In this document: positions 3,921 to 49,280 of the stretch, in pieces
Position numbering within the stretch: position 1 is the stretch's first letter
How the letters are laid out: each line of letters opens with the position of its first letter
Source of the DNA: Henricia sp. BOLD:AAB3569
Taxonomy: Eukaryota > Echinodermata > Asteroidea > Spinulosida > Echinasteridae
Direction of reading: 5' to 3'
NCBI GenBank assembly: GCA_037783545.1
Contig: JBBELK010000329.1
Location: forward strand, 2,184,501-2,248,500
Length of the DNA: 64,000 bases
Made by a program: the position numbers and the translations under genes
The notes under the pieces: generated by a model
What the model saw: the letters and a program-made list of their open reading frames with translations, nothing else
Told to the model about the DNA's origin: nothing
The model's database searches: none

Positions 3921-4003
3921 TGTTTTTTCTAGGTTACCTTGTATTACTTCCAAAAAAAATATCAAATTTGTCGGGGTTTTTTAAGATATGAATGTTAACT
4001 TAC

Positions 4004-4315
4004 TGCCACATGTTGTCCTGATTGTCACCTCAGGACTTGGACGTCCTGGACCCCATGTATCCCCAACAACCACCACAGTGAAATTATACTCAGTGTCTGG
4101 CTCCAGTCCCGTTACATTAAGAGATGTGCCAGTGCTAGACACTATAGTTTTATCAGTGTCATCTGCGACGTCATTCTTGAGTCGATAATTGACCTCATAT
4201 CGTGAGACTGGTCCTTCACCCAGGTCTTCAATTGGTGTCCACATGCGCCATCTGACACTGATGCTGGTTGGTGTAACTTTACCAGAAGTTGGTGCAGACA
4301 CAAGAGATGGTGCTT
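4004..4315 (-). CDS. Tie-like gene exon 9: first FN3 domain
   Basis: 312 nt, phase 1-1, acceptor ttctaaaacag, donor GGCA|gtaagt. A complete fibronectin type III domain: EAPSLVSAPTSGKVTPTSIS, then VRWRMW (strand-B Trp), YEVNYRL (strand C), and GLEPDTEYNFTVVVV (the classic strand E-F Leu/Tyr motif). Spacing is typical for one FN3 of about 100 residues. Confidence 0.85.
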
Positions 4316-4415
4316 CTGTTTTAGAAAACAGTTTCAAAAGATGAATCGTTTAAAAATATAATAACACAATCCCTAAAATTGAGATTTGTTTAATTTTATT
4401 CCCCCACTTGAGTAC

Positions 4416-4534
4416 TGGGGGGCATTCAATAGCGCAATATGTATGCATATTGACAATACATTGTACCTTCAATGCTAAAGGTATAGAGAAAAACCGCATA
4501 ACGGCATACGTATTGTGCTATTGAGCTTGCTCCT
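4416..4534. mobile_element. Small foldback MITE family B, copy 1
   Basis: About 119 bp with inverted ends GCATTCAATAGCGCAATAT and TACGTATTGTGCTATTGAGC. The same family recurs at 46104-46222. Confidence 0.6.
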
Positions 4535-5240
4535 GGTTATACATGTATACCTTTACATTTAATATTGTAATATTCAAAAATTATATGTTTGTTGGCTTTG
4601 GTCACCATCAAATCGCGGTCTTATTGATTGCTTTTCGCGTCGTAGAACATCCAGAAATGTTAATTTGGGTGTCAGCGGTCGTGCGCGCGCCAACAGACGC
4701 ACATGAACATGCGTAAAAAATACTCACCAGCGTATTTTTATTCGAGAATGCCGCACACTTGCGTTGCGATACGTTAAAATTATTGGCCATTTAGTCAGCT
4801 TGTAAAAACGAAAGTGTTTTTACTTGATCACGATTTTTCGATGCAACAGCCATGACGCAACACCATAAAGCAAGGTTAAGCAACAGAGGCAAGTATAACC
4901 AACGCGCTTTTTTTGTAACGTGGGTCATGAAAAATGACATCCAAAATGGTGGATGGATGGCAAGGCGTCACCGGAAAGCAATCATTATAGGCAAATTTAT
5001 AAATATCTGCTGCATATTCCACCAAGTCATGCATAATGCACTTTAGATGTGTGATGCACTTGGGAGGAATTGTCCGTTCACAAATTACAGCACAGGCTTT
5101 GTGATAATGCATGGTGCACTATGCACACACATAATTTATTCATAGCCGGCCAAGGGAGCTCTACTTGCACAGAATGATGTGCAATTTTTGCAGGGCATTC
5201 AAACAATGACAGTTGACTCCGTCCATTTTGTCACTCTTAC

Positions 5241-5540
5241 CAAATACGTCTACAATGAGCTCTTGACAGAGTTGAGTTAATCCTTCTACACAACAAGTCA
5301 GCCGAGCTCCATCTCTTGAACCATCTCCAGTCAAACCATTTTTCACAGTTCTCCTGTAAGCATTTATCTCGTAGGATTCTTGGTTCAATTGAAGAGGTAA
5401 GGCTTTTCCATGGGAGTCCTTTACAATGACCTCATGTGAAGCAGGCAGGGGATTCCCCACGACCACGCACTGTACAAACACTGTCTGGCTGGCATTTGGC
5501 TTGTTATTTTGGATGAAGGTGACGATGGCTGTTGTTCCAT
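5241..5540 (-). CDS. Tie-like gene exon 8: third Ig domain
   Basis: 300 nt, phase 1-1, acceptor gtttgtgttag, donor TTTG|gtaaga. One hundred residues start GTTAIVTFIQNNKPNAS. VFVQCVVVGNPLP supplies the strand-B cysteine and ARLTCCVEGL the strand-F cysteine, so an Ig fold is likely. An Ig domain between EGF units and FN3 repeats is the feature that most favours Tie over other EGF/FN3 receptors. Confidence 0.75.
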
Positions 5541-5654
5541 CTAACACAAACAAAAGACAGCAGTACATACTAAATGTAATTTTTCTCAAGGTGAAGATTT
5601 TTTTTTCAGTGGCATACCAAAACATGTGATTTCCGTGATTTTTGCAATACTCAC

Positions 5655-5798
5655 TTTGGTTGCATGCTGGTCCAATGGAGCCGTCTGCACAGCCGTTACT
5701 ACATACTCCAGTGTCTTCATGACAGGACTGGTTATCACGGCAATTACATCTCTTATCACACAGCTCACCAAAGTAACCAACACGGCAGGGTGTTTGAA
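5655..5798 (-). CDS. Tie-like gene exon 7: EGF-like domain
   Basis: 144 nt, phase 1-1, acceptor acttgtgtacag, donor CAAA|gtgagt. It encodes VQTPCRVGYFGELCDKRCNC, RDNQSCHEDTGVCSNGC and IGPACNQ, another laminin/MEGF-type EGF of the same pattern as exon 6. It is the last EGF before the third Ig domain. Confidence 0.77.
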
Positions 5799-6036
5799 CT
5801 GTACACAAGTACATATGCAAAACACAATGTAGAGAAAGTATCAAACAAGCAGCAGAAACACAAGAATTTAGTGTTATAACTGTTTACACACAAACTTGTT
5901 CAAGTTGCACCATCTATTTGCCCAAGATTAGAGATGAGGAGTAAAGAAATTACCTGGGGTTGAGAAAATGATTCTTGCCAAGATATGTCACTTTTGATAA
6001 GTTCGGAATGAGCAAAATATTTCCATGAGCTAATTA

Positions 6037-6180
6037 TTAAAGGCATAGGCTCGTCAGTAATGCGGGCACAAACAATTCGTGCCACAAAGTACACAGTTCC
6101 ATGCCTTTGCTATGGAGCTGCGTATTCCGTCGCACGAATTTGGCATGCGTGCATTGCTGACGAGCCTGCTGTGCCTTCAA
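6037..6180. mobile_element. Foldback MITE family A, copy 2
   Basis: TTAAAGGCATAGGCTCGTCA on the left and TGACGAGCCTGCTGTGCCTTC on the right, inverted. The right TTAA has become TCAA. The centre (CATGCCTTTGCTATGG) is inverted relative to copies 1 and 3, as expected from a near-palindromic element that can insert either way. Confidence 0.65.
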
Positions 6181-6813
6181 ATGAGTTACATGCAACAAAT
6201 GTATACTTGAAATGCAATTGTGGTGATAGATAATTCATGAATTCTTTGACTGTGGTCCAGTTTTATGAAAATAATCTTGCCAAAATTTGTCCCTCCTGTT
6301 TAAGTTTGCAATAAGCAGAGTATCTCCTCTGTTTAACTTTATCATGGTGCGTCCATCTTTGTCTTGTTCCCCGTGCAGTTTGTAAATGACTGCATCACAC
6401 ACTGCCATTAGTCTGTACATTAGTTCCGGTTCCAGTACCGGTTCCGGCAGCGTGTGCGTGTGTGATGCAGCACTTACTACCGGATATTTCCTGTTTGGCA
6501 CGATCAGTGTGTCTGCACAATCGCACGATAGCGCGTGTAATCTTCCGTAGTTGTTTTGAGAGGAACAGTAATCTTCCTGCACATTTTCTTGATCACGCTT
6601 CGAATGTGTCATTGTGATGCACACAATGAACAATTTCAACACGGGACCAAACCATTTTTCCTGCAAGCCTCGCTTTGATTACGTTGATTTTAGGGGGAAA
6701 AGGGAAGATGGCCGCACCGTGATAAACGTCTATGAGCTTGTGCTCCAGTTTTAATCTACAAATAACAACTGCCACTATAACCTTGAGGCAATTGAATCCC
6801 CTCTTTGACAAAC

Positions 6814-6978
6814 CTTGGCAGTTCTGGCCCTTCCATGTCTTTGCACAGTCTTGGGGACAGTTGTTGGTAGTACATGACGAGTCGTAACATTCCCCAGTAT
6901 CTTTCAAACACGTGATGCCGTCAGCACAATGACAAGTCTGTGAGCAGTATGGGCCAAATGTGTTTGGTTGGTCACACT
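6814..6978 (-). CDS. Tie-like gene exon 6: EGF-like domain
   Basis: 165 nt, phase 1-1, acceptor aattcacag, donor CAAG|gtttgt. Fifty-five residues start ECDQPNTFGPYCSQTCHCAD, then carry GITCLKDTGECYDSSC and end WKGQNCQ. The FGPxCxxxCxCADGxxCxxxTGxC pattern is the laminin/MEGF-type EGF used in Tie and related receptors. Confidence 0.77.
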
Positions 6979-7519
6979 CTGTGAATTAATAACATACGAT
7001 ATGGTATAAAGTCACATGAAACTAAATTAAAACAAAGTACATAATAAAAATCGACCTCAGATAGAATATGATACGGCTTCATTATAGATTACTTTATTTT
7101 ATTTTATTTATTAATTCACATGAAGTCTTTTTAGGGCCCGGCTGGTTTCAACTTCAACACTCACAAATTGTGACCTCACGACAATGCTTAAAGATGTTAC
7201 CATTTGTAGAATGACTCATGTTGCTTGCTGGTTTGTACTCTGCCATTTGTGACCTGCGACCACAAAGTGAGCTAAAAGTCGGTCTAAAATTTGAAATCAA
7301 ATAGAAGAGTTACTCTTTCCAAATATTACAAAACCCTAAAATTGACCTCCTTCAATTTTGAACCGTTGTTATAGGAAATAGCCAAGTGCAATTTTACACT
7401 CATTTCGTTGTGACAGGTCACATTTAGTACATGTAATGTCAGACAGCCTGCCTTCACTACTAGCTAGTATAGGAACTTCAGATATTTACCCAAAAAGTCA
7501 ATTTTGGAAAGATACGAAC

Positions 7520-7675
7520 CTTGTTTACAGTCGATGCCCTTGTAGCCTGCTGCACATACACAGCCAAATGGATCTTGGAGACAAAACAAGCGCCCTCTAC
7601 ATGAGGTACCGTGACGTCCCTCTGTTTCATTGCATTTCAGGGTACCACTCAAGCCAAAAACATTCCTGCCATGTA
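7520..7675 (-). CDS. Tie-like gene exon 5: EGF-like domain
   Basis: 156 nt, phase 1-1, acceptor ttgttttgcag, donor CAAG|gttcgt (weak beyond GT). Fifty-two residues start VHGRNVFGLSGTLKC and contain SCRGRLFCLQDPFGCVCAAG then YKGIDCKQ. The CxxDPFGCxCxxGYxGxDC pattern is a variant EGF seen in Tie-like ectodomains. It lies between two other EGF exons. Confidence 0.75.
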
Positions 7676-8200
7676 CTGCAAAACAACAGCGTATATATCG
7701 GCAGGATTACAGCCAATGTCTAAGAACTACCGGTATTAAGCTGGATTCACACAAATATTTTTACGCCTTAAAGCATGTAAATTTGATGAGCATTATTTTG
7801 AGAAAAAGCAGCATGGATGAAACTTGTACACCTAGTACGATATGTGACAGAGGCACTCCCCCTACACCTCAACAGTCTTTCCTTTTGTTAACACACCAAC
7901 CCCCAAAAAACTCCCAACCCCCAAATTCCTTTGATGTTTGAGAAACAATGGGGGAACAATGGAAGGGGAAGCTTAGGGGAAACCTCTATCGTGCTGCATA
8001 TAAAACTTAGAGTAAAATGACGCACTGAAAACCACAGAATCAATTAATGTAGAAAGTGTGTTTCTGTGATTTTTCATTGCATCGTTTCACATCAAATTCT
8101 CTCAATCCACGCCGCTTTGCCTCAAAGCAACTCGCATTAAATTTATGCGCATTAACACATGAAAATGGCTGTGTGAATCGAGCCTTACATACTGGTATGT

Positions 8201-8300
8201 GGCAGTAATTCTGGGGCACAGATACATTAATTCACCAGTCAGATCACACACATGCCCCCCATGTAACACACCGGACATACACCATGACAGCCAGTTGACA
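8201..8300 (-). pseudogene. Decayed duplicate of EGF exon 4
   Basis: The minus strand repeats exon 4 almost base for base over about 100 bp (the CCAACTGGCTGTCATGGTGT, GTGTTACA and GACTGGTGAAT blocks) but with deletions and lost cysteine codons. It lacks an intact frame and a matching acceptor and is probably not used. It records a local tandem duplication of one EGF exon inside intron 4. Confidence 0.7.
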
Positions 8301-8330
8301 CATTGGACAGTCATGTATGAGATACCTTAC

Positions 8331-8468
8331 CCATGTGGCAGTTGGAACCACTGAATCCTGGAGCACAGATACATTCACCAGTCAGATCATCACACATTCC
8401 CCCGTTGTAACACACTGGACAAACACCATGACAGCCAGTTGACTTTCTGTACCTGTCAGCTGAACAAC
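8331..8468 (-). CDS. Tie-like gene exon 4: EGF-like domain
   Basis: 138 nt, phase 1-1, acceptor ctatattgcag, donor ATGG|gtaagg. It reads GCSADRYRKSTGCHGVCPVC then YNGGMCDDLTGECICAPGFS, ending GSNCHM: an EGF/laminin-EGF type unit with the CxCxPGFxGxxC end. It follows Ig2 directly, as the first EGF does in Tie receptors. A decayed copy of this exon lies just downstream (8201-8300). Confidence 0.78.
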
Positions 8469-8507
8469 CTGCAATATAGAGGTACAAGAACATTTTATAT
8501 GAGTCTT

Positions 8508-8753
8508 TCCACGGTAAAGGGGCCATTTTGGCAACACAGACAATATTTTCAAAAAAATACATGTACCTTTAATTTGTCCGTCTCAAAATTAAAAAAACCC
8601 TGTGTACAAATTTCCAATAAACATGTACCGGTACGCTCGTAACCGGGACGGCCTAAAATGTAACACAAGTGTCCGTCCCGGTTACAAGCACATATTTCTT
8701 CAAAAATATTGTCTGTGTTGCCAAACTGACCTCTTTATTACTGTGGAAAAACC
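8508..8753. mobile_element. Foldback MITE near EGF exon 4
   Basis: Inverted arms: TTTTGGCAACACAGACAATA with TATTGTCTGTGTTGCCAAA, and CGTAACCGGGACGG with CCGTCCCGGTTAC. It sits about 40 bp upstream of the exon 4 acceptor in transcription order, so it may lie within the branch-point region. Confidence 0.65.
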
Positions 8754-9168
8754 CATATCCGCTTCTAAGTGGGTCATATTTCTTGTTTTTTAACAATATA
8801 TAACAATAATGTATGAGTTGCACTTGTTTAGCACAATATATTTTGTTTGTTAGATTCCTTTAACCCTAATGGTACCAAATTGTTCAATTAGTACATAACT
8901 TTTCATAGAACCAAGGGGTTATAGGGTTAAGTGTATATAATGTATATCAACAATTTCAGTCAACCAATATTTGTTATAATTAAAATAAAAGCACAACTTC
9001 TGTGTATAACCAATTAGTCTCGCCACTACATGTATAGTGATGAGGAGCGATAATATTAGTGATGGTGATCTGTAAATAAAAAAAAGACTAAACAAAAGGA
9101 CTGTGCCTATAAATTTAAGGAGCATTGTGCAAATTTAGGTTTAATAAAAGTTGAAATTCCGTCATTAC

Positions 9169-9417
9169 CTCTTACGATAAGTTTAAAGATAGCATGTTGT
9201 CCCTTGGGTCTCTCTCCATATACGTGGCATTCATAAACTCCAGCATCAGCCACTGTGACTTGGCTAATACTTGGGGACTGATTGCCTTTCCATCTGCCAA
9301 TTTGAACGGTGTTCATTCTCCATCGCAAGTCTAATGTTTGGGGCAATGTGATAATGTTCAGGGTGACTGACTCTCTCACGTTGACAGTGATCGTCTGGCG
9401 TTCTGGTTTAACGGTGG
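9169..9417 (-). CDS. Tie-like gene exon 3: second Ig domain
   Basis: 249 nt, phase 1-1, acceptor catcaaatacag, donor AGAG|gtaatg. The 83 residues carry an Ig signature: a strand-F motif ADAGVYECHV, an LRWRM strand-C tryptophan and SVTLNI in strand B. The strand-B cysteine appears to be replaced, so the canonical disulfide may be missing. Corresponds to Ig2, which helps form the ligand-binding head in vertebrate Tie2. Separated from exon 2 by a 7.5-kb intron holding the GACGTC element. Confidence 0.75.
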
Positions 9418-10059
9418 CTGTATTTGATGTGGAAAAGAATCCAAGAACAAATTTTAACGTTCCAAAGTTTGACACTTCAGGTGTATAAAGATATGCATGT
9501 ATCACGTATTATCCTTGTCATCTGATTAGTTCATAGCAGGTCACATGTTATTCTACATTTAATGCTACATCACTAACCAGGCAGTTTTGTTCCATTTGCC
9601 ATGCAATTTTGTTCCATACATTTTTTTCGTTGCACGGTGCACCCATGCCCACTGTATTAATTCAGCGCGTGCGTGCGCGTGTACAGAATGTGACGACCCC
9701 TGACACAAAAACCTTTTTACAACTCACAAGCAACATGACGGACGATAAAATAAACTTGAAGGGTAAGCTTGAATAATTTGTAAACAAATATAGGATAACA
9801 AGGCTCTACTTGGCCAAAGAAAACTGTAAAATGATTATATGTACATTACAAGGATGCATTTGTTGTTGGTGGTGGTGTTGTTGTTAAAGTCCTTCCCCTA
9901 ATCTCTCTATAATGGAGGTCTAATCTCGTGATTCTGTTGAATGTCGCAGAAGGCAATCCCAGAAGGCACGAAGCGCTTGTGCCAGTGTTCACATAGACTA
10001 CTAGCGCCATGAGTAATTATTTGTATTAGAATGTGCGCTTTATAAATCTGTATTATAAA

Positions 10060-20990: not shown

Positions 20991-22204
20991 GAATTTTTGA
21001 AATTTTGCAAGCTAATATATGTACCGCAGGGACAACTTAGAAAAATTTGAAGCTTTTGAGTTTTGTTGAGTAAACCTAACAAGATAAAACTGCATGTTCC
21101 TTGCTCTATGAGCAGCTGAAAGGAATGCATTAATCATGTTAATTGCTAAAAAATAAAACTCAGTCCTACAAAATGAATTTAGGCATAAATCAGAGGTGTT
21201 ATGAGAAGATCACAGCTAGTACACATGCAAAACCAAGGACATGACCGATTGAGAGTGCATGGCTATCCTGATACATGTATCACAGCATCTTTGTTTCTGC
21301 TAAATTTAAGCTAAACTAACTGCTTAATTTTTATGTCAAATTTACACTTCCTGACACTGATATCTAGTGATATTTGTAGGTAAAATAATTATCTAAGACT
21401 AAATAAAACTGTTTTGGCTAGTGTCCTACAATGAACAATGTTGTTCATTATATGTGAACATGATAATGAACAATACAATGGTTTGTCTATACACATACTG
21501 ACATAGGCCTACATGTAGCTCCATAGTCCATGGTCTACACAAGAAACAAATGGATCCTGCTCTGATCTGTGGCCAAATATCCATAAAATAAACTCTTCAT
21601 TATTTCAGTTTTGTTAATTTGTGCAAGTATTACCTTAGTAAAGTAAAAAGAGGCCTGATAAAGCTGATTTCAGATGAGAAATATCACCACATTTGGATTT
21701 CCAGCCCTTGCAACACTTTCAAACCAGCATGCAGTTACAAAAGTCTGGTTCCAGCTGCTACTGTATGCTCACTTGTTTAATGTTGGAGTCAGGGAACCAG
21801 AGATAGTGTATATCCCTAGACTGGTTCTCAATCTTCATTGTTAAAAGTGTAGGAGATTAGGCAAATAAATCATGGAACCTGGCATTGCATTCATTTTTTT
21901 CTTTTTTTGGTCTAAACAAATAAAAGTAAAAAGGTTCAATAATTTTATTATCAACTAGTCTTATTTATGTTGCTATAAGCTGGAAGCTTGTTTGTTTTCC
22001 AAACAAGTTTGGACAATTACTGTATGGACTACAGAACTTAAGGATTTATATTTTTCTTTCTAATTAAGGCAATTATTTGTTGCAGATCTAGAAATTAATT
22101 TATATGAAGAAAAGGTTTACAAAAACATTTGTAAAAAAATGCTATTGAATTGAGAAATTATTATACGCAGGAAATTATTATAGGAAATTATTTCTCATCA
22201 GGCA

Positions 22205-22805
22205 CATGTATGCAAGCTTGTACGCACATGTACATGTAGCTTGCTGCAAGCTCGCAGGCACACATACTAGCTTGCTGCAAGCTTGCAAACACACGTGCAA
22301 GCTTGCTGCAAGCATGCAGACTCACGTGCAAGCTTGCTGCAAGCTTGCACATGGCCTGCAAGTTTGCTGTAAGCTTGCTGCAAGCTTGCTGCAAGCTTGC
22401 TGCAAGCTTGCTGCAAGCTTGCAGGTGGCCTGCAAGTTTGCTGCAAGCTTGCACATGGCCTGCAAGTTGCCACGTGCACACGTGCAAGCTTGTGGCAAGC
22501 TTGCAGGCACACGTGCAAGCTTGTGGCAAGCTTGCAGGCACACGTGCAAGCTTGTGGCAAGCTTGCAGGCACACGTGCAAGTTTGTGGCAAGCTTGCAGG
22601 CACACATGCAAGCTTGCGGCAAGCTTGCGGCAAGCTTGCGGCAAGCTTGCAAGCTTGCGGCAAGCTTGCAGCAAGCCTGCAAGCTTGCCGCTAGCTTGCA
22701 CACAAGCTTGCACACAAGACTGCAATCTTGTACAAGCTTGCGGCAAGCTTATTAAGCTTGCAGCAATCTAATTACAAGCTTAATGCAAGCTTGCGGCAAG
22801 CTTAC
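22205..22805. repeat. Right GCAAGCTTGC array
   Basis: The same palindrome, here interspersed with GGCACACGTGCAAGCTTGTG units (itself containing palindromic CACGTG) and GGCCTGCAAGTTTGC units. Confidence 0.92.
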
Positions 22806-42005: not shown

Positions 42006-43247
42006 TTATATCAGCCACGTCATTTCATTGTTAATACGAACTGCTTCCTTAGCGCGGCTCTTTGCATGCGGGATCAGCGCCCAGTAGACGTCGAAGGTGA
42101 GGTGAAGAGACGGCAGAAGACGATTGAGAAGAGTAGCGAGAAGACGTAAAGTTGGTTGGATGGCCGGACATTGGATAAAGAGATGTTCGATGGTTCCTCG
42201 CTCTCCGCACCATCCGCAGGTTGAGGCGATATCCGGGTAGATTTGATGAAGGACTGTCAGAGATGGAAGAAAATTGTGAAGAAGTCTGAACTGCACATCT
42301 CCTTCCTTTTTTGACGTTGGCAACCGAAAGATTTCACTCCACTGAATGTAAGTGGACGGGTCGATAAAGCCCAGTTTGTGCCAGTAGGAAGGAGATGGCG
42401 AAGCCGGTGGGTGCAGTGTGGTGACGAGGTTGTTGTAGACGATTTTAGATGGTGCGGAGAGTCCATTCTGTACGGATGACAGGCTGAAATTTACGGCGGA
42501 GACCGGATGTCTGGGGATGTTTCCAATTTCAGCCTGGGCGTGACGGAGTCCATCCGTACAGAAAATATCTGGAAAAGTTTGAAGACAGGAACGGAGATGC
42601 TGGAGGTCTTGATGTAGAGGACGGAGAGATGGAGGACGTAAACCAGAGAAAGAGGCGATGAGCGTTTGATTGTCTATCCAGTGTCCGGTAGAAAGATGCA
42701 GGACGTGGCGGACTAGCGAGACCCCGCACGCTTTGAGCCGCGCGGGTGGCGCCTCCCCATCAACAGCTGCATCGTCACCGCGGGCGCTATTAATTGGCAA
42801 ATTTATGACGTGGCTGATACCATCCGGACGTGTTTCTAGTCGCGCTCCGGAGGCCGTCCAAGCACACAAAATGTCGGCATAGAACACGGGAAGACTGGTA
42901 TGATATTTGGGGTCGGTTTGAAAATGGAAAAGTTCGTAATCATAATTGAGTTTTTGGTATTGTCGTAGGAAGTGAGCCATGAAGGAAAAGGCGTGATGAG
43001 ATGAGAGGTTTAGAAAGCGTTGAGTAGTACTGAATCTGAAAGTCATGATGCGTGCTTGGAGGCATGTTAGACCAAGTCCTCCATTGTCAGGTTTTCTATA
43101 TAACATAGGTGTTTTAAGGTAGTGTCGCTTGTTAGTAAATATTTGAACAGAGATATTTTTGATAGGGGAAGAACATCCCCCCGTTTTAAGTGTGAGCAGC
43201 GACAATGCCATGACGCAGGCCTTAAATACACGTAAGAAAGCATCCAT
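42006..43247 (-). CDS. LINE ORF2 C-terminal fragment
   Basis: 413 residues after an ATG, 21 bases downstream of the ORF1 stop. KPDNGGLGL near residue 50 matches the region just after the reverse transcriptase in L1/Tx1 ORF2. CGWCGERGTIEHLFIQCPAI near residue 345 is the C-terminal zinc-binding motif (CxxC...HxxxxC). The endonuclease and the RT core are absent, so it cannot itself drive retrotransposition. The deletion lies at or before the start of this frame. Confidence 0.8.
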   Translation of the reverse strand: MDAFLRVFKACVMALSLLTLKTGGCSSPIKNISVQIFTNKRHYLKTPMLYRKPDNGGLGLTCLQARIMTFRFSTTQRFLNLSSHHAFSFMAHFLRQYQKLNYDYELFHFQTDPKYHTSLPVFYADILCAWTASGARLETRPDGISHVINLPINSARGDDAAVDGEAPPARLKACGVSLVRHVLHLSTGHWIDNQTLIASFSGLRPPSLRPLHQDLQHLRSCLQTFPDIFCTDGLRHAQAEIGNIPRHPVSAVNFSLSSVQNGLSAPSKIVYNNLVTTLHPPASPSPSYWHKLGFIDPSTYIQWSEIFRLPTSKKEGDVQFRLLHNFLPSLTVLHQIYPDIASTCGWCGERGTIEHLFIQCPAIQPTLRLLATLLNRLLPSLHLTFDVYWALIPHAKSRAKEAVRINNEMTWLI

Positions 43248-43268
43248 TGAAGAAAGTAAAAAAGGTAC

Positions 43269-45017
43269 TTAGTTATCTAAACGTATAAGGAGCTTTTGTA
43301 TCCTCTGCTGCATTGCCTTGCCAAGGGGCGCGTAATTTCGTAGAGGTTTTAGTTGTTTGACCAGTCCAGGTATGTTGGAAGTGAATTTCTTTGCAACCTG
43401 GACTGGTTTCTTCCGGGATTTAACTGTGGCAAGGAATTTTATGAGCTCCACCGACGACAGGGGGCCATTGGATGCAGGGAGGATATCAGACGTCAGATCA
43501 TCATCCGTCTGAGTATCCTCCCATTGCATGGAGTCGGTGTCAGTGTTTCTATCGCCGGGAGTTGAAAGTGTTTGTGAGGAAGACATTGGGGTGAAGGGGG
43601 CGGGGGGAGTGGGGGAAGAGGGGCCAGGAATAGGGCTGGAAGGCACGGAAATGGGCGGGGCGGAGGCAGGGGTGGGCGGGACATGTGTAGGAGTTGGGGT
43701 GGCGACGGGGGAGGGGGCAGGTGTGGGGGAGGGGGCAGGTGTGGGGGAGGGGGAAGGTGTGGGGATGGGGACAGGGGAGAGGGAAGGGGTGGGGGAAGGG
43801 GTGGGGGAAGGGGTGGGTACGGGATGGGCAAAAGGAGATGGTGGGGGGACTTGGGTTTCATCCTGGGTTTGAGAAAGTGCACATTTTGGGCTTTCTGTCG
43901 TTTTGGCAATTTTGTGAACAGGGGATGAGAATTTGAGGGTGGTCAGTTTGAAAGGAGATGGAGAAGAATTTAAGGGAGGTTGTTTCCGTTTGGTGATGAC
44001 TTCGGAGAAAGTTCTCGAAGGAGGGGGAGGAGAGCCAAGAATATGCACATTCTCTTGGGAGAGGGTTGTATTTCCGCTGGCCGCGCTCGTACCAGGCACG
44101 GGGACGGAAAGGACCGGGGCCGGCGGCGCACCGGCACCCGGGACCCCGGCCGAGGACGGCCTGCCTTTCCCACCGGGGTGAGAGGACGGGCCGCCGGCAG
44201 GCACGGTCGAGCGGGGAGCTGGTTTGGGAGGAACGGGTTTGGAAGGGGCGGTCACAAAAGGGTTGGGCTGTTTAGGTTTTGAGACTTTGGGAGGGTGTTT
44301 GGGATCGGATTTTTTGTTTTTACCGTGCATGAAGACGGGTGGTGGATTGAGAGGGTTGTCATTGACGGGGTCAGGTTGATTGTCGGGATTAGAGGGGTTC
44401 TGTTTCTTGCAGTTTTTGCTAATGTGGCCAAGCTCCTGGCAAGAGAAACACCGAACCGACTCAGTAGACAGGAAAACTCGATAGTTAGTATTGGAATACG
44501 TAAAATTTATGTGATTGGGAGGGTTGACATTCGGGTTGAGGAGGACTTGAACCTGTCGTCGGAAGCTCATTACATGGGAAAGGTCTTTGTGTTTGAGTCC
44601 CAAGGGGATAGGCCTGATCTGCGACACTATCTTACAAAAGGAAGACAGGTTGGCCGCAATGACTCCATTCGGGATTTCGGGGTATATGTTCGAAAGGGTG
44701 AGGCGAGTTGTGGGTCGGACTAGAGGGGTCAGCTCGAGATAGGAGCCATCGTAGGACAGTCCATCTTGGACCGCCTCGATGACCGCCTGTCTCGAGCTGA
44801 GGTAGAAAGCAATTCTGCCATTAGAAATCCGTGAAGCGGAAACAATTGTTTGTGCGGATAGTTGTTTGGAGATGACGTCCATGTATTCCCGAATGGAGAC
44901 ATTGTCAGCCGCATTGAAAGACACGCCATTGTTCCTGGTGACACCCGTAAAAGGCTCGTCACCAGGAACAATGGAGCCAGCAGAGCCAGCCGTGCTAGTG
45001 CTGGGCTGACCCTGCAT
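43269..45017 (-). CDS. LINE ORF1 nucleic-acid-binding protein
   Basis: About 582 residues from the ATG at 45017 (context GCCATGC); the open frame extends further upstream only through a GTG. The N-terminal half has two weak RRM-like segments (SNGRIAFYLSSRQAV; RLTLSNIYPEI), then a CCHC zinc knuckle CFSCQELGHISKNC, then a long Pro/Ser/Thr-rich tail. This is the usual ORF1 layout of Tx1-clade and some L1 elements, where the protein coats the element RNA. No internal stops. No cellular role is implied. Confidence 0.82.
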   Translation of the reverse strand: MQGQPSTSTAGSAGSIVPGDEPFTGVTRNNGVSFNAADNVSIREYMDVISKQLSAQTIVSASRISNGRIAFYLSSRQAVIEAVQDGLSYDGSYLELTPLVRPTTRLTLSNIYPEIPNGVIAANLSSFCKIVSQIRPIPLGLKHKDLSHVMSFRRQVQVLLNPNVNPPNHINFTYSNTNYRVFLSTESVRCFSCQELGHISKNCKKQNPSNPDNQPDPVNDNPLNPPPVFMHGKNKKSDPKHPPKVSKPKQPNPFVTAPSKPVPPKPAPRSTVPAGGPSSHPGGKGRPSSAGVPGAGAPPAPVLSVPVPGTSAASGNTTLSQENVHILGSPPPPSRTFSEVITKRKQPPLNSSPSPFKLTTLKFSSPVHKIAKTTESPKCALSQTQDETQVPPPSPFAHPVPTPSPTPSPTPSLSPVPIPTPSPSPTPAPSPTPAPSPVATPTPTHVPPTPASAPPISVPSSPIPGPSSPTPPAPFTPMSSSQTLSTPGDRNTDTDSMQWEDTQTDDDLTSDILPASNGPLSSVELIKFLATVKSRKKPVQVAKKFTSNIPGLVKQLKPLRNYAPLGKAMQQRIQKLLIRLDN

Positions 45018-45250
45018 GGCGGGTTCCGCTTGACTGACCGTAACGGCCAGCCATAGCAAAAACCCAAAGGAATGAACCAAAATATACACTAAAATTACTA
45101 CAAAATGAGAAAACCTGACAAATAGAGGATGGTCTAGTTGAATCTGTATATCTAACCGGTCACAATAGTATACAATTTGTAACCGGAAAGCTTTAAAAAG
45201 CTAGGATTTTCTTACGTTTTCCGGAGCTCGATAGAAACACGACCGCCACG

Positions 45251-46512: not shown

Positions 46513-46640
46513 GGGCGTGTTTGTTTCGGACGAATCCGCCGATCCTGATCTGCGCAGATGGTTCAGCGCTATGCATTTTGGATCTATCTAACCATCTGCG
46601 CAGATCAGGATCGGCGGATTCGTCCGAAACAAACACGCCC
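46513..46640. repeat. Perfect 51-bp-arm hairpin
   Basis: GGGCGTGTTTGTTTCGGACG ... GCGCAGATGGTT and its exact complement, with a 26-base loop. A foldback MITE in young condition. Confidence 0.92.
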
Positions 46641-47437
46641 AAGGCTAGTGTATGAAATTTGCGCCAGCGTGAACTAGACGCGCGTATGAAGTTTCGGGCG
46701 CGAGCGTTAAGACTTCACGCGCGCGTGTTTCCCTGCTAGTGTTCCTGACCGGTCACTTGTCTCAAAAACTAGTGACCGGTTACTGCGCCCTCTGGAGGTT
46801 GCTTGTTAATGTATTAAATTGAATTTCATATGTACGTGTGTATTTTTGCCTGAGGCGTGTTTTAAAACACATACGGACTGGCATAATTCGGTCTCTAGTG
46901 CACGTCCATGTGCCCCTCGTGACTGTGAGTGACCACAAGAGGGTTACACATGTCAATACATAAAAATATACGCACTTACTAAAAAAAATAATAATAACCA
47001 CGTGACTACGGGCAGAATTCTGCCCGTCATGGCTGCCCTTTACCGATCCTTATATTTTCCCAATAAGCGATAGGATCCGAGTCGGGAACCAATCTACATC
47101 AACTTGCAGATATCGAAACAGCCAAATAACGTCATTTGTAGGAATAATTAGACTTTGTTCCAAGTCTGCACGAGTGAACGTAATAATGCACCCCTCCTCC
47201 ACCCCGGACCGCTTCCCCGCGCTGCCCCACCCCTTAGGTGGGGGTTTGATCACGTTTTTCGTGCCCCAGGGTGGGGATTTTGACCCATTGAAATACAAAT
47301 TTCTGTGCATAAATAGCAAGGCGTGCATGTTTTACACCCAATGGTGCGCCCTTATTGTCACCTAAATTGTGCCCATGGGGTAGGGATTTTGTCACGCGAA
47401 AGTGCAATCCCAACCTCTTGGGTGGGGCAGCCCGGAG

Positions 47438-47811
47438 GCGATATTTTTTTCCGTACCGTTGTTTAGCGAACATTGCTTCTGATTGGTTTAACCCCCATGC
47501 ATATGTTGAATACTGTTTCGTTGATTAACTACCTCAACATAACCCCACACCATACCACACTCTTTCCTCAATTAATAGTAAAAAAAAATTAATACGACTC
47601 TGAGGAGATTCGATCCTGCCATCTCTCGATTGATAGCACTACGTCTTAACCACTAGACTACCAACGACTCGACAAATCCTTAAATTTTCTTTCTTATATC
47701 CTTTTATTTAATAACTCTTGGAGGCGCTATATAGAAAATATGAATATTCATTTACAATGCCCCAATCGATGAAGCCCCATAGCGAATATGTGGTACGGAA
47801 AAAAATATCGC
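47438..47811 (-). mobile_element. TIR element with tRNA-like core, copy 1
   Basis: Perfect 20-base inverted ends GCGATATTTTTTTCCGTACC and a 9-base target duplication AGCCCGGAG on both sides (47429-47437, 47812-47820). 374 bp. On the minus strand the interior carries a tRNA-like unit: TAGTCTAGTGGTTAAGACG (box A) and GGATCGAATCTC (a weakened box B), followed by a T8 stretch. A 9-base duplication suggests a Mutator-type transposase. Confidence 0.82.
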
Positions 47812-48153
47812 AGCCCGGAGGGGGGTGGGGGAACAATACCCCAAAAACTAAATGAGTACAGATTCTTACAGAATGTAAGTTAGAAACAGCAATTAGTATA
47901 GTACAAACATTAAAATCAAAAGTGAGGTAAAGATAACATACTAAAAAACAATTGATCGACAGCCATATAATAAACAAATGCTTGTCTGTGGCATGCAATT
48001 AATAAAGAAATGAAAGTCAGAGCAGGCTAATTATTGAATCAGGCAAATATAACAGTAAAAATTTAACACAAACTAAATTAGGCAAATGATTTCTATAACA
48101 GGTTTCGAAAAGGCCGAGGGAAGGCTTAGTTATGATTGACTCGTCTATAGAGT

Positions 48154-48593
48154 TCCATATCACTGTTAACATTTCTCGGGTTTTTTTTACAGAACGTCCT
48201 GCAGCAAAATTACCGGAACATTTTTTTTTTCTCTGTAAATTTACGGAAGAATTCCGTTGCTTTGTCCGTAAAAATACCGATTATTCGACTATGTCCGTAA
48301 AATTACGGAGCTCGGTCCTTAAATAAACAGTGTGAATTCCGTAAAAATACGGAAATTTTGTTTTTAAAATCCGTAAACAAATTTTACGGGTTTTTCGGAA
48401 AAATTCCGGCAGCAAAATTACGAGAACTTTTTTTCTGCTAAATTCACGAAATAAATTTTACGGAAATACGTAATATTTTACGGCAATAGTCCGTTTATCA
48501 AATATGTTTGTACAATTAAAAATACGGATTCTACGTGTGCAAACCGTAAAATTACGGAAATGACCCTGACAATTCCGTAAAGTTGAACAGTGT
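48154..48593. mobile_element. CACTA-like element with CCGTAA arrays
   Basis: Ends CACTGTTAACATTTC and (inverted) CACTGTTCAACTTTACGG; CACTG starts fit CACTA/EnSpm, and flanks TAT/TAG could be a worn 3-base duplication. Inside are many TTCCGTAAAAATACGGAA-like units in both orientations. Confidence 0.6.
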
Positions 48594-48743
48594 AGGCGAA
48601 GTCCGTGGTACCTGAGGGTACGTTATACAAGGAAGAAGTTGTAACGGCCGTCCCGATCCACCAGCTGAGGGAGCAAGCACCGTTTCAAGGTGGGTCCGCC
48701 CGACGTGCTGAGGGCGCTATCACGGCTCCAACGGCGCCGGGTG

Positions 48744-49074
48744 GCGATATTTTTTCCGTACCACATATTCGCTATGGGGCTTCATCGAGGTGTTTGATTG
48801 GTGCATTGTAAATGAATATTCATATTTTCTATATAGCGTCGTTTGGTAGTCTAGTGGTTAAGACGTGGTACTATCAATCGAGAGATTGCAGGTTCGAATC
48901 TCCTTTGAGTCGTATTAAAGTTTTTCACTATTAATTGGGGAAAGAGTGTGGTATGGTGTGGGGTTATGTTGAGGTAGTTATCGACAAAACACATCAGTAT
49001 GCAACACATGCATATATGGGTTAAACCTATCAGAAGCAATGTTCGCTAAACAGCGGTACAGACAAAAATATCGC
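48744..49074 (+). mobile_element. TIR element with tRNA-like core, copy 2
   Basis: 331 bp, opposite orientation to copy 1. Left end GCGATATTTTTTCCGTACC, right end worn (GGTACAGACAAAAATATCGC), flanks CGCCGGGTG / AGCCGGGTG (8 of 9). The tRNA-like unit reads TAGTCTAGTGGTTAAGACG, then GCAGGTTCGAATCTCC (good box B), then TTTTT at about 48921. Confidence 0.8.
48838..48925 (+). ncRNA. tRNA-like Pol III unit inside copy 2
   Basis: Box A TAGTCTAGTGG and box B GGTTCGAATCT are about 40 bases apart, as in tRNAs, with a T5 terminator downstream. I would not call it a working tRNA: the arms pair poorly. Transcription is possible but not shown. Confidence 0.45.
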
Positions 49075-49280
49075 AGCCGGGTGGCGTGAGCCCCTGCTGG
49101 AGGATCGGGATATCCGTTCCGCGTGGGGACGCGATCCCCCCGCCATCTTTGTGTTTGGTTGTGAACCAGGAAGGAGTGTTGAAAATAAACGTGGAGAGTT
49201 TTGTGCCTGAATTGGAATTTCCTGTGTGTTCTTGCTTGTGTTGAGTTTCAATAACAAGTAGGATAAATTCTTGTTTTACA

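Follow-up and report, generated by a model that had tools for sequence, protein, structure and literature searches.

Exploitation of Pol III factors is known chiefly in SINEs and in retroelements whose targets are Pol III genes. Mariner elements leave target site duplications (TSDs) unlike the 9-bp TSDs of the MITE family described here, which we designated the first family. In the account given in PMC6887750, MER6/MER6A is a Tc1/mariner MITE with a V-SINE body from which the tRNA-related head is excluded. To the extent of that account, MER6 resembles the first family in that a SINE-derived piece lies within a MITE, spread occurred by DNA transposition and the chimera predated amplification, but it carries the SINE body and tail, whereas the first family carries the promoter part with no SINE body recognized, and its terminal inverted repeats (TIRs) are unlike those of the first family. 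HzSINE1 of Helicoverpa zea, which appears as 'MITE-like' in a table of PMC9659126, joins SINE and MITE features in its name. tRNA-derived SINEs share with the first family a box A and a box B at the usual spacing, as far as the patterns in PMC10137851 go, whilst the first family differs from them in its TIR ends, 9-bp TSDs, internal T-run and absence of a retroposon-like 3' tail. The retrieved portions of PMC6947457 and PMC5139131 concern CENP-B boxes, and DINE-1 is presented without a Pol III promoter in the corresponding portion of PMC2374699. In a survey confined to papers, mostly at abstract level, we met no description of a DNA transposon that contains a tRNA-type promoter. The preliminary description of this locus had called the element a chimera not known by name; MER6, a MITE with a SINE body, qualifies that statement, which stands insofar as the PMC6887750 account leaves MER6 without the tRNA-related head.

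Two opposite MITE copies in the window

The window, i.e. the whole 64,000-nucleotide stretch of Henricia sp. DNA analysed here, contains two first-family copies and a related empty site. Predicted starts and the TATA-like position follow the promoter geometry given in the part of PMC10137851 that covers it.

46747..46755: GACCGGTCA, related empty site in a repeat of which another copy, at locus L006, holds a MITE at this place with a 9-bp TSD
47429..47437: copy 1 TSD, first, AGCCCGGAG, read from sequence, belonging to the 9-bp class
47438..47811, minus strand: MITE copy 1, full-length type, aligned with copy 2 and genome copies
47438..47457: copy 1 TIR, the element's right end, exact 20-bp inverted repeat
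47580..47588, minus strand: copy 1 T-run, candidate Pol III terminator, read from sequence
47606..47616, minus strand: copy 1 box B GGATCGAATCT, pattern match with one mismatch
47650..47660, minus strand: copy 1 box A TAGTCTAGTGG, predicted start ~47671
47694..47701, minus strand: copy 1 TATA-like stretch GGATATAA, at -31..-24 of the predicted start
47792..47811: copy 1 TIR, the element's left end, exact 20-bp inverted repeat
47812..47820: copy 1 TSD, second, AGCCCGGAG, read from sequence
48735..48743: copy 2 left TSD CGCCGGGTG, 8/9, read from sequence
48744..49074, plus strand: MITE copy 2, lacking consensus 90-146, from alignments
48744..48762: copy 2 left TIR, from alignment
48847..48857, plus strand: copy 2 box A TAGTCTAGTGG, predicted start ~48836
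48891..48901, plus strand: copy 2 box B GGTTCGAATCT, perfect pattern match
48921..48925, plus strand: copy 2 T5, candidate Pol III terminator, read from sequence
49055..49074: copy 2 right TIR, from alignment
49075..49083: copy 2 right TSD AGCCGGGTG, 8/9 against the left one, read from sequence

Copies 1 and 2 could be aligned end to end, with 87-89% identity across the BLAST pieces. The TIRs of copy 1 (GCGATATTTTTTTCCGTACC) are exact over 20 bp at both ends; those of copy 2 are imperfect, with one T missing on the left and two mismatches on the right. Given their differing TSDs (9/9 for the copy 1 pair, 8/9 for the copy 2 pair), the two copies are separate insertions. A stretch of 57 bp (consensus 90-146), directly upstream of the promoter unit, is present in copy 1 and absent in copy 2, and no window ORF of at least 120 aa overlaps either copy. 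When the window was scanned for box A followed by box B and T4, only copies 1 and 2 were recovered (two overlapping matches each), and 30 first-order Markov resamples of the window gave 0.1 matches per 64 kb on average and never more than 1. Alignment and sequence reading thus bore out the earlier report of two opposite copies with 20-base TIRs, duplications of about 9 bases, boxes A and B and a T-run. The range given there, 47438..49074, does hold the two MITE copies, but ~0.9 kb of it, separating them, is DNA unrelated to the MITE. Degenerate CCGTAAAATTACGG-like motif repeats occupy 48180-48600, between the copies.

Genome-wide copies, target sites and longer relatives

A search of the genome (740.7 Mb in 2104 contigs) returned 659 matches to the left terminus of the MITE at no more than 2 mismatches, partly from longer relatives and hence not all first-family MITEs; the control returned 0. 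Ninety loci from the list of left ends, some of them overlapping, comprised 67 with left end, core and right end, three with left end and core, two with left end and upstream spacer, and 18 with the left terminus alone. We then worked with 70 full-length copies, made up of the five best matches to copy 1, 63 copies from L009-L098 (exact left-end matches, taken in list order) and the two window copies. Copies were included if both ends were found, identical sequences were counted once, and L001 and L022 were skipped. The set contains L003/L005, one insertion seen twice, and L049/L050, one duplicated insertion, and the five best matches are a biased part of it because all five are undeleted. Lengths range from 288 to 630 bp, the longest copy having a nested insertion, and median divergence from the consensus is 3.1%. 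By its short non-coding make-up, TIRs at both ends and TSD of fixed length, the first family is a MITE. Another opposite-orientation pair of first-family copies, 17 bp apart, was seen at L004 (G000:C329:4103160-4103896). The copy at L093 is split at consensus 306 by an insertion of ~145 bp with inverted ends, and that at L010 by an insertion of ~250 bp inside box A.

The TSD measures 9 bp, and is perfect in 39/70 copies, with one mismatch in 12, two in 10 and more in nine; at least 7/9 positions agree in 61/70 copies, and a mismatched-pair control gave 0.7% perfect. The 39 perfect TSDs are all different; in every one, position 4 is C and position 6 is G, and C-N-G occupies positions 4-6 in 50 of the 51 sites matching at 8/9 or better. 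The related empty site lies in a copy of the repeat that is interrupted by the MITE at L006: the joined L006 flanks and window repeat 46642-46944 are identical at 294/303 positions, ungapped and with a single GACCGGTCA. Close by, at 46513-46640, is a perfect inverted repeat of 51 bp with a 26-nt loop which, compared with the L006 repeat, looks like a separate small insertion. Both promoter boxes, at no more than 2 mismatches, are retained by 63/70 full-length copies, whilst six retain just box B and one just box A. Since 63/70 copies keep both boxes, the perfect TSDs all differ and a related empty site exists, the promoter unit preceded the spread of the family, as the preliminary description had proposed; the converse situation, in which most members lack the core and the window pair is a local duplication, is contradicted by the copies read.

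Relatives that lack the core do exist, a point on which the earlier description had called for a check. In all seven longer elements with the same TIR start there was no match to the MITE core or right arm. Six of these (L021, L039, L040, L041, L099 and L100) measure ~1.1 to 5.1 kb end to end, and L101, covered in part, is ~11 kb by pattern positions. They resemble the first 28-59 bp of the MITE left end at both termini, or in L101 at its one terminus read, and their end motif has 118 matches genome-wide. Perfect 9-bp TSDs flank L021 (CACCCGGTT) and L100 (GGCCGGGAG), L039 has a TSD matching at 8/9, and no clear TSD was seen at L040, L041 and L099. No transposase family was recognized among 12 ORFs of the longer relatives, the one P-element HTH match (E=0.14) being below cut-off. 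Mutator-like elements (MULEs) have TSDs of the 9-bp size class. Their likeness to the first family comprises this TSD and MULE transposase domains somewhere in the genome (19 matches), with no transposase linked to these TIRs.

A predicted Pol III promoter cassette in two MITE families with different TIRs

Type-2 Pol III promoters are characterized, in the part of PMC10137851 that treats them, by box A TRGYnnARBGG and box B GGTTCRAnYCY, 30-40 nt apart. In the first-family consensus, box A is TAGTCTAGTGG and box B is GGTTCGAATCT; the two fit these published patterns with a spacing of 33 nt, and the element is on these grounds predicted to contain a type-2 Pol III promoter. With the predicted start set 11 nt before box A, the consensus has a TATA-like GGATATAA at -31..-24, and the predicted RNA would be ~90 nt long. 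Perfect pattern matches were present in 62 of the 70 copies for box A, 40 for box B and 35 for both. The TATA-like stretch is intact in 33/70, all three promoter parts are perfect in 11/70, and 20/70 carry the one-mismatch box B GGATCGAATCT. Of the 69 copies having box B, 68 show a T-run of at least 4 no more than 50 nt from it. The singleton mutation rate in the boxes is at least equal to that in the arms, and non-CpG singletons are slightly more frequent in the tRNA unit than in the arms (8.6 vs 5.5 per kb, p=0.028).

The unit had previously been termed 'tRNA-like', which is apt for the promoter boxes but not for any tRNA score or unusual fold. There was no match to the Rfam tRNA family in 47300-49200 at E up to 10, and no tRNA was called across the whole window by Rfam at gathering level or by ARAGORN at default; 355 ARAGORN calls at a relaxed score in the window were set aside as noise. 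Folding of two typed family strands was ordinary (z -0.37 and -0.75). A true tRNA gene is not supported, given the absent covariance-model match and the ordinary fold, and the TIRs and 9-bp TSDs do not fit a tRNA-derived SINE with retroposed ends. A viral-contig pattern scan gave no match.

Genome-wide, a 21-mer from the core has 1565 matches at no more than 2 mismatches, exceeding the count of left ends. Of six cores that lacked an exact first-family left end, five lay in a second family, designated MITE2, with ends GCGTAATTTTTTTCCCAGGATGG, and one in a left-truncated first-family copy; four further unpaired cores belonged to first-family copies whose left ends are mutated, an upstream deletion being obvious in three of these. 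None of these 10 cores was a free SINE, five lying in MITE2 and five in first-family copies. Among 100 listed cores 30 were unpaired, and the six of these that were read all lay in MITEs. In four MITE2 copies with both ends, the TSDs are of the same kind as those of the first family, being perfect 9-bp duplications in three (GCCCCGGTT, ATACGGGCA and GTCCGGGTA) and 8/9 in one, and the MITE2 left end has 98 matches genome-wide. Pairwise difference is 1.3-3.8% in MITE2 (six pairs from four copies) and 3.5% on average in the first family, and MITE2 may on this basis be somewhat younger.

The two families are identical at 156/165 positions of consensus 48-212, from the left arm to box B, and at 150/217 in the remainder. 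Identity is complete from the TATA-like stretch to box A (consensus 114-166, 53/53) and in box B (11/11), near-complete upstream (67/69 over -69..-1), and lower in the spacer between the boxes (27/33), just after box B (16/30) and in the TIRs (17/20 and 13/22). The TATA-like stretch and boxes show no significant excess conservation over the rest of the conserved block (30/30 vs 126/135, p=0.37), whilst differences are in excess in the spacer between the boxes (6/33 vs 3/132, p=0.002, a post hoc comparison). This pattern fits selection on the promoter rather than on the RNA sequence. The block could also stem from recent exchange between the families, which is disfavoured by the concentration of differences between the boxes, the sole point against it.

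Upstream deletions and the possible role of the promoter

Deletions of at least 6 bp within consensus 45-170 were found in 44/70 copies, or 44/65 without the five best-match copies, and represent 47 events, 44 of them distinct. Of 52 distinct deletions, 44 fall in this region, whereas 20000 random draws averaged 14.8 and never exceeded 27. Right breakpoints gather around the predicted start, with a median of -1 and quartiles of -14.5 and +4.5, whilst left breakpoints are spread (median -49). Microhomology at the deletions is slightly raised (mean 1.15 vs 0.79 random). A second indel hotspot at 207-232 was dropped, as it consists mostly of subfamily variants common to several copies. The share of deleted copies is flat across divergence quartiles (10/17, 11/18, 11/17 and 12/18), and a separate comparison by age was likewise not significant (2.7% vs 2.5% divergence, p=0.46; singletons, p=0.17). 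Only 2/44 distinct deletions were found in more than one copy, a smaller share than the 29/113 for substitution variants outside CpG (p=0.0018). Of the two intervals in question, one probably recurred, because it occurs in three subfamilies at a GAGT microhomology, an alternative alignment giving a longer deletion in L073, its third member; the other (L014 and L056) may be inherited. Copies that have lost part of the promoter signals thus seem rarely to spread further. An event that is linked to first-family transposition or post-excision repair and stops at the promoter would fit deletions that are frequent from the start, mostly unique to a copy and seldom inherited. That they are unshared would follow either if spreading requires the upstream promoter region or if few master copies were active.

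The distance from left end to core is altered in 0/16 MITE2 copies and shortened in 28/54 first-family copies (p=8e-5), a comparison that drew on 100 listed of the 659 left ends and 100 listed of the 1565 cores. Its MITE2 side rests on 25 of the 98 left ends, at no more than 1 mismatch and on contigs C1-C129, with one two-mismatch end on C2 excluded. Nine of these 25 have no exact core nearby, in the case of C34 apparently owing to a ~2.8 kb insertion upstream of the core (L106). Since MITE2 has the same boxes and near-identical upstream DNA, the deletions cannot be due to Pol III binding by itself. The two members of the duplicated insertion L049/L050 differ at the deletion hotspot, so some change there came after insertion, a difference that pure deletion at insertion does not predict.

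The explanation we prefer, held tentatively and as a whole close to an even chance, is that these are short non-autonomous TIR elements mobilized in trans by a transposase that would make 9-bp duplications at C-N-G-centred sites. A tRNA-derived type-2 promoter, made up of the TATA-like stretch, the two boxes and the T-run, was gained before amplification and spread to hundreds of copies; TFIIIC and TFIIIB would probably bind it and make the ~90-nt RNA, and the bound complex would probably keep the element open to transposase. In the first family, transposition-linked DNA repair may often fail close to the bound complex; the resulting deletions would end near the predicted start, and deleted copies would rarely spread. 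The structure, the TSDs and the presence of the cassette before the spread and in MITE2 are demonstrated, whereas we infer that the promoter is more than cargo and that Pol III factors bind it. A more demanding version, in which TFIIIC/TFIIIB assembly is needed for efficient mobilization, the promoter is kept while TIRs diverge, and repair deletions at the start site end spread, is doubtful as formulated.

A nearly as likely possibility, likewise short of an even chance, is that an ordinary MITE took up a tRNA or SINE-head fragment by chance and that a few intact masters spread it, the promoter being irrelevant. Few source copies would account for the unshared deletions, and the absent tRNA score, ordinary fold, frequent one-mismatch box B, scarcity of copies with all three promoter parts perfect and unreduced singleton mutations in the boxes are likewise in keeping with a passenger. 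Against this, every subfamily defined by 3' junction variants has copies with an intact upstream region, and the boxes and upstream flank are near-identical across two families that differ in other parts. We regard the promoter as a working part and the promoter as a passenger as about evenly matched. If the promoter aids movement, DNA transposons are able to make use of Pol III factors; as a passenger, it would still constitute a young, high-copy natural experiment, in which one promoter occurs in two TIR backgrounds, both with and without the upstream region, in one genome.

It is improbable that the upstream deletions reflect post-insertion fragility from Pol III transcription or fork stalling at the unit, although 35/47 events touch -31..-24, where TFIIIB would be expected, L049/L050 differ following duplication, and singletons in the tRNA unit slightly exceed those in the arms. 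tRNA genes are also described as fork barriers in yeasts in the relevant part of PMC5368702, which we counted in favour of fragility. The deleted share does not rise across divergence quartiles, however, and no shortened distance occurs in any of the 16 paired copies of MITE2, whose promoter is the same; fragility as sole cause is disfavoured on both counts. Finally, it is hardly credible, despite the 0.9 kb spacing and opposite orientation of the window copies, that a single copy containing a SINE was duplicated locally or that the element is a plain SINE whose terminal repeats arose by chance; both ideas are refuted by the differing TSDs of the two copies, the genome-wide left-end matches with fixed 9-bp TSDs, and the empty site.

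Elsewhere in the window, probable remains of a non-LTR retrotransposon were observed at 42006-45200, with a zinc-knuckle ORF and a weak, below-cut-off match to a reverse-transcriptase zinc-binding domain. On the minus strand, 3981-9508 contains exons with an fn3 domain, a weak Ig-like match and EGF-like cysteine patterns seen by eye, perhaps a receptor gene. The region 22149-22771 is tandem-repeat-like, with several frames open on both strands.
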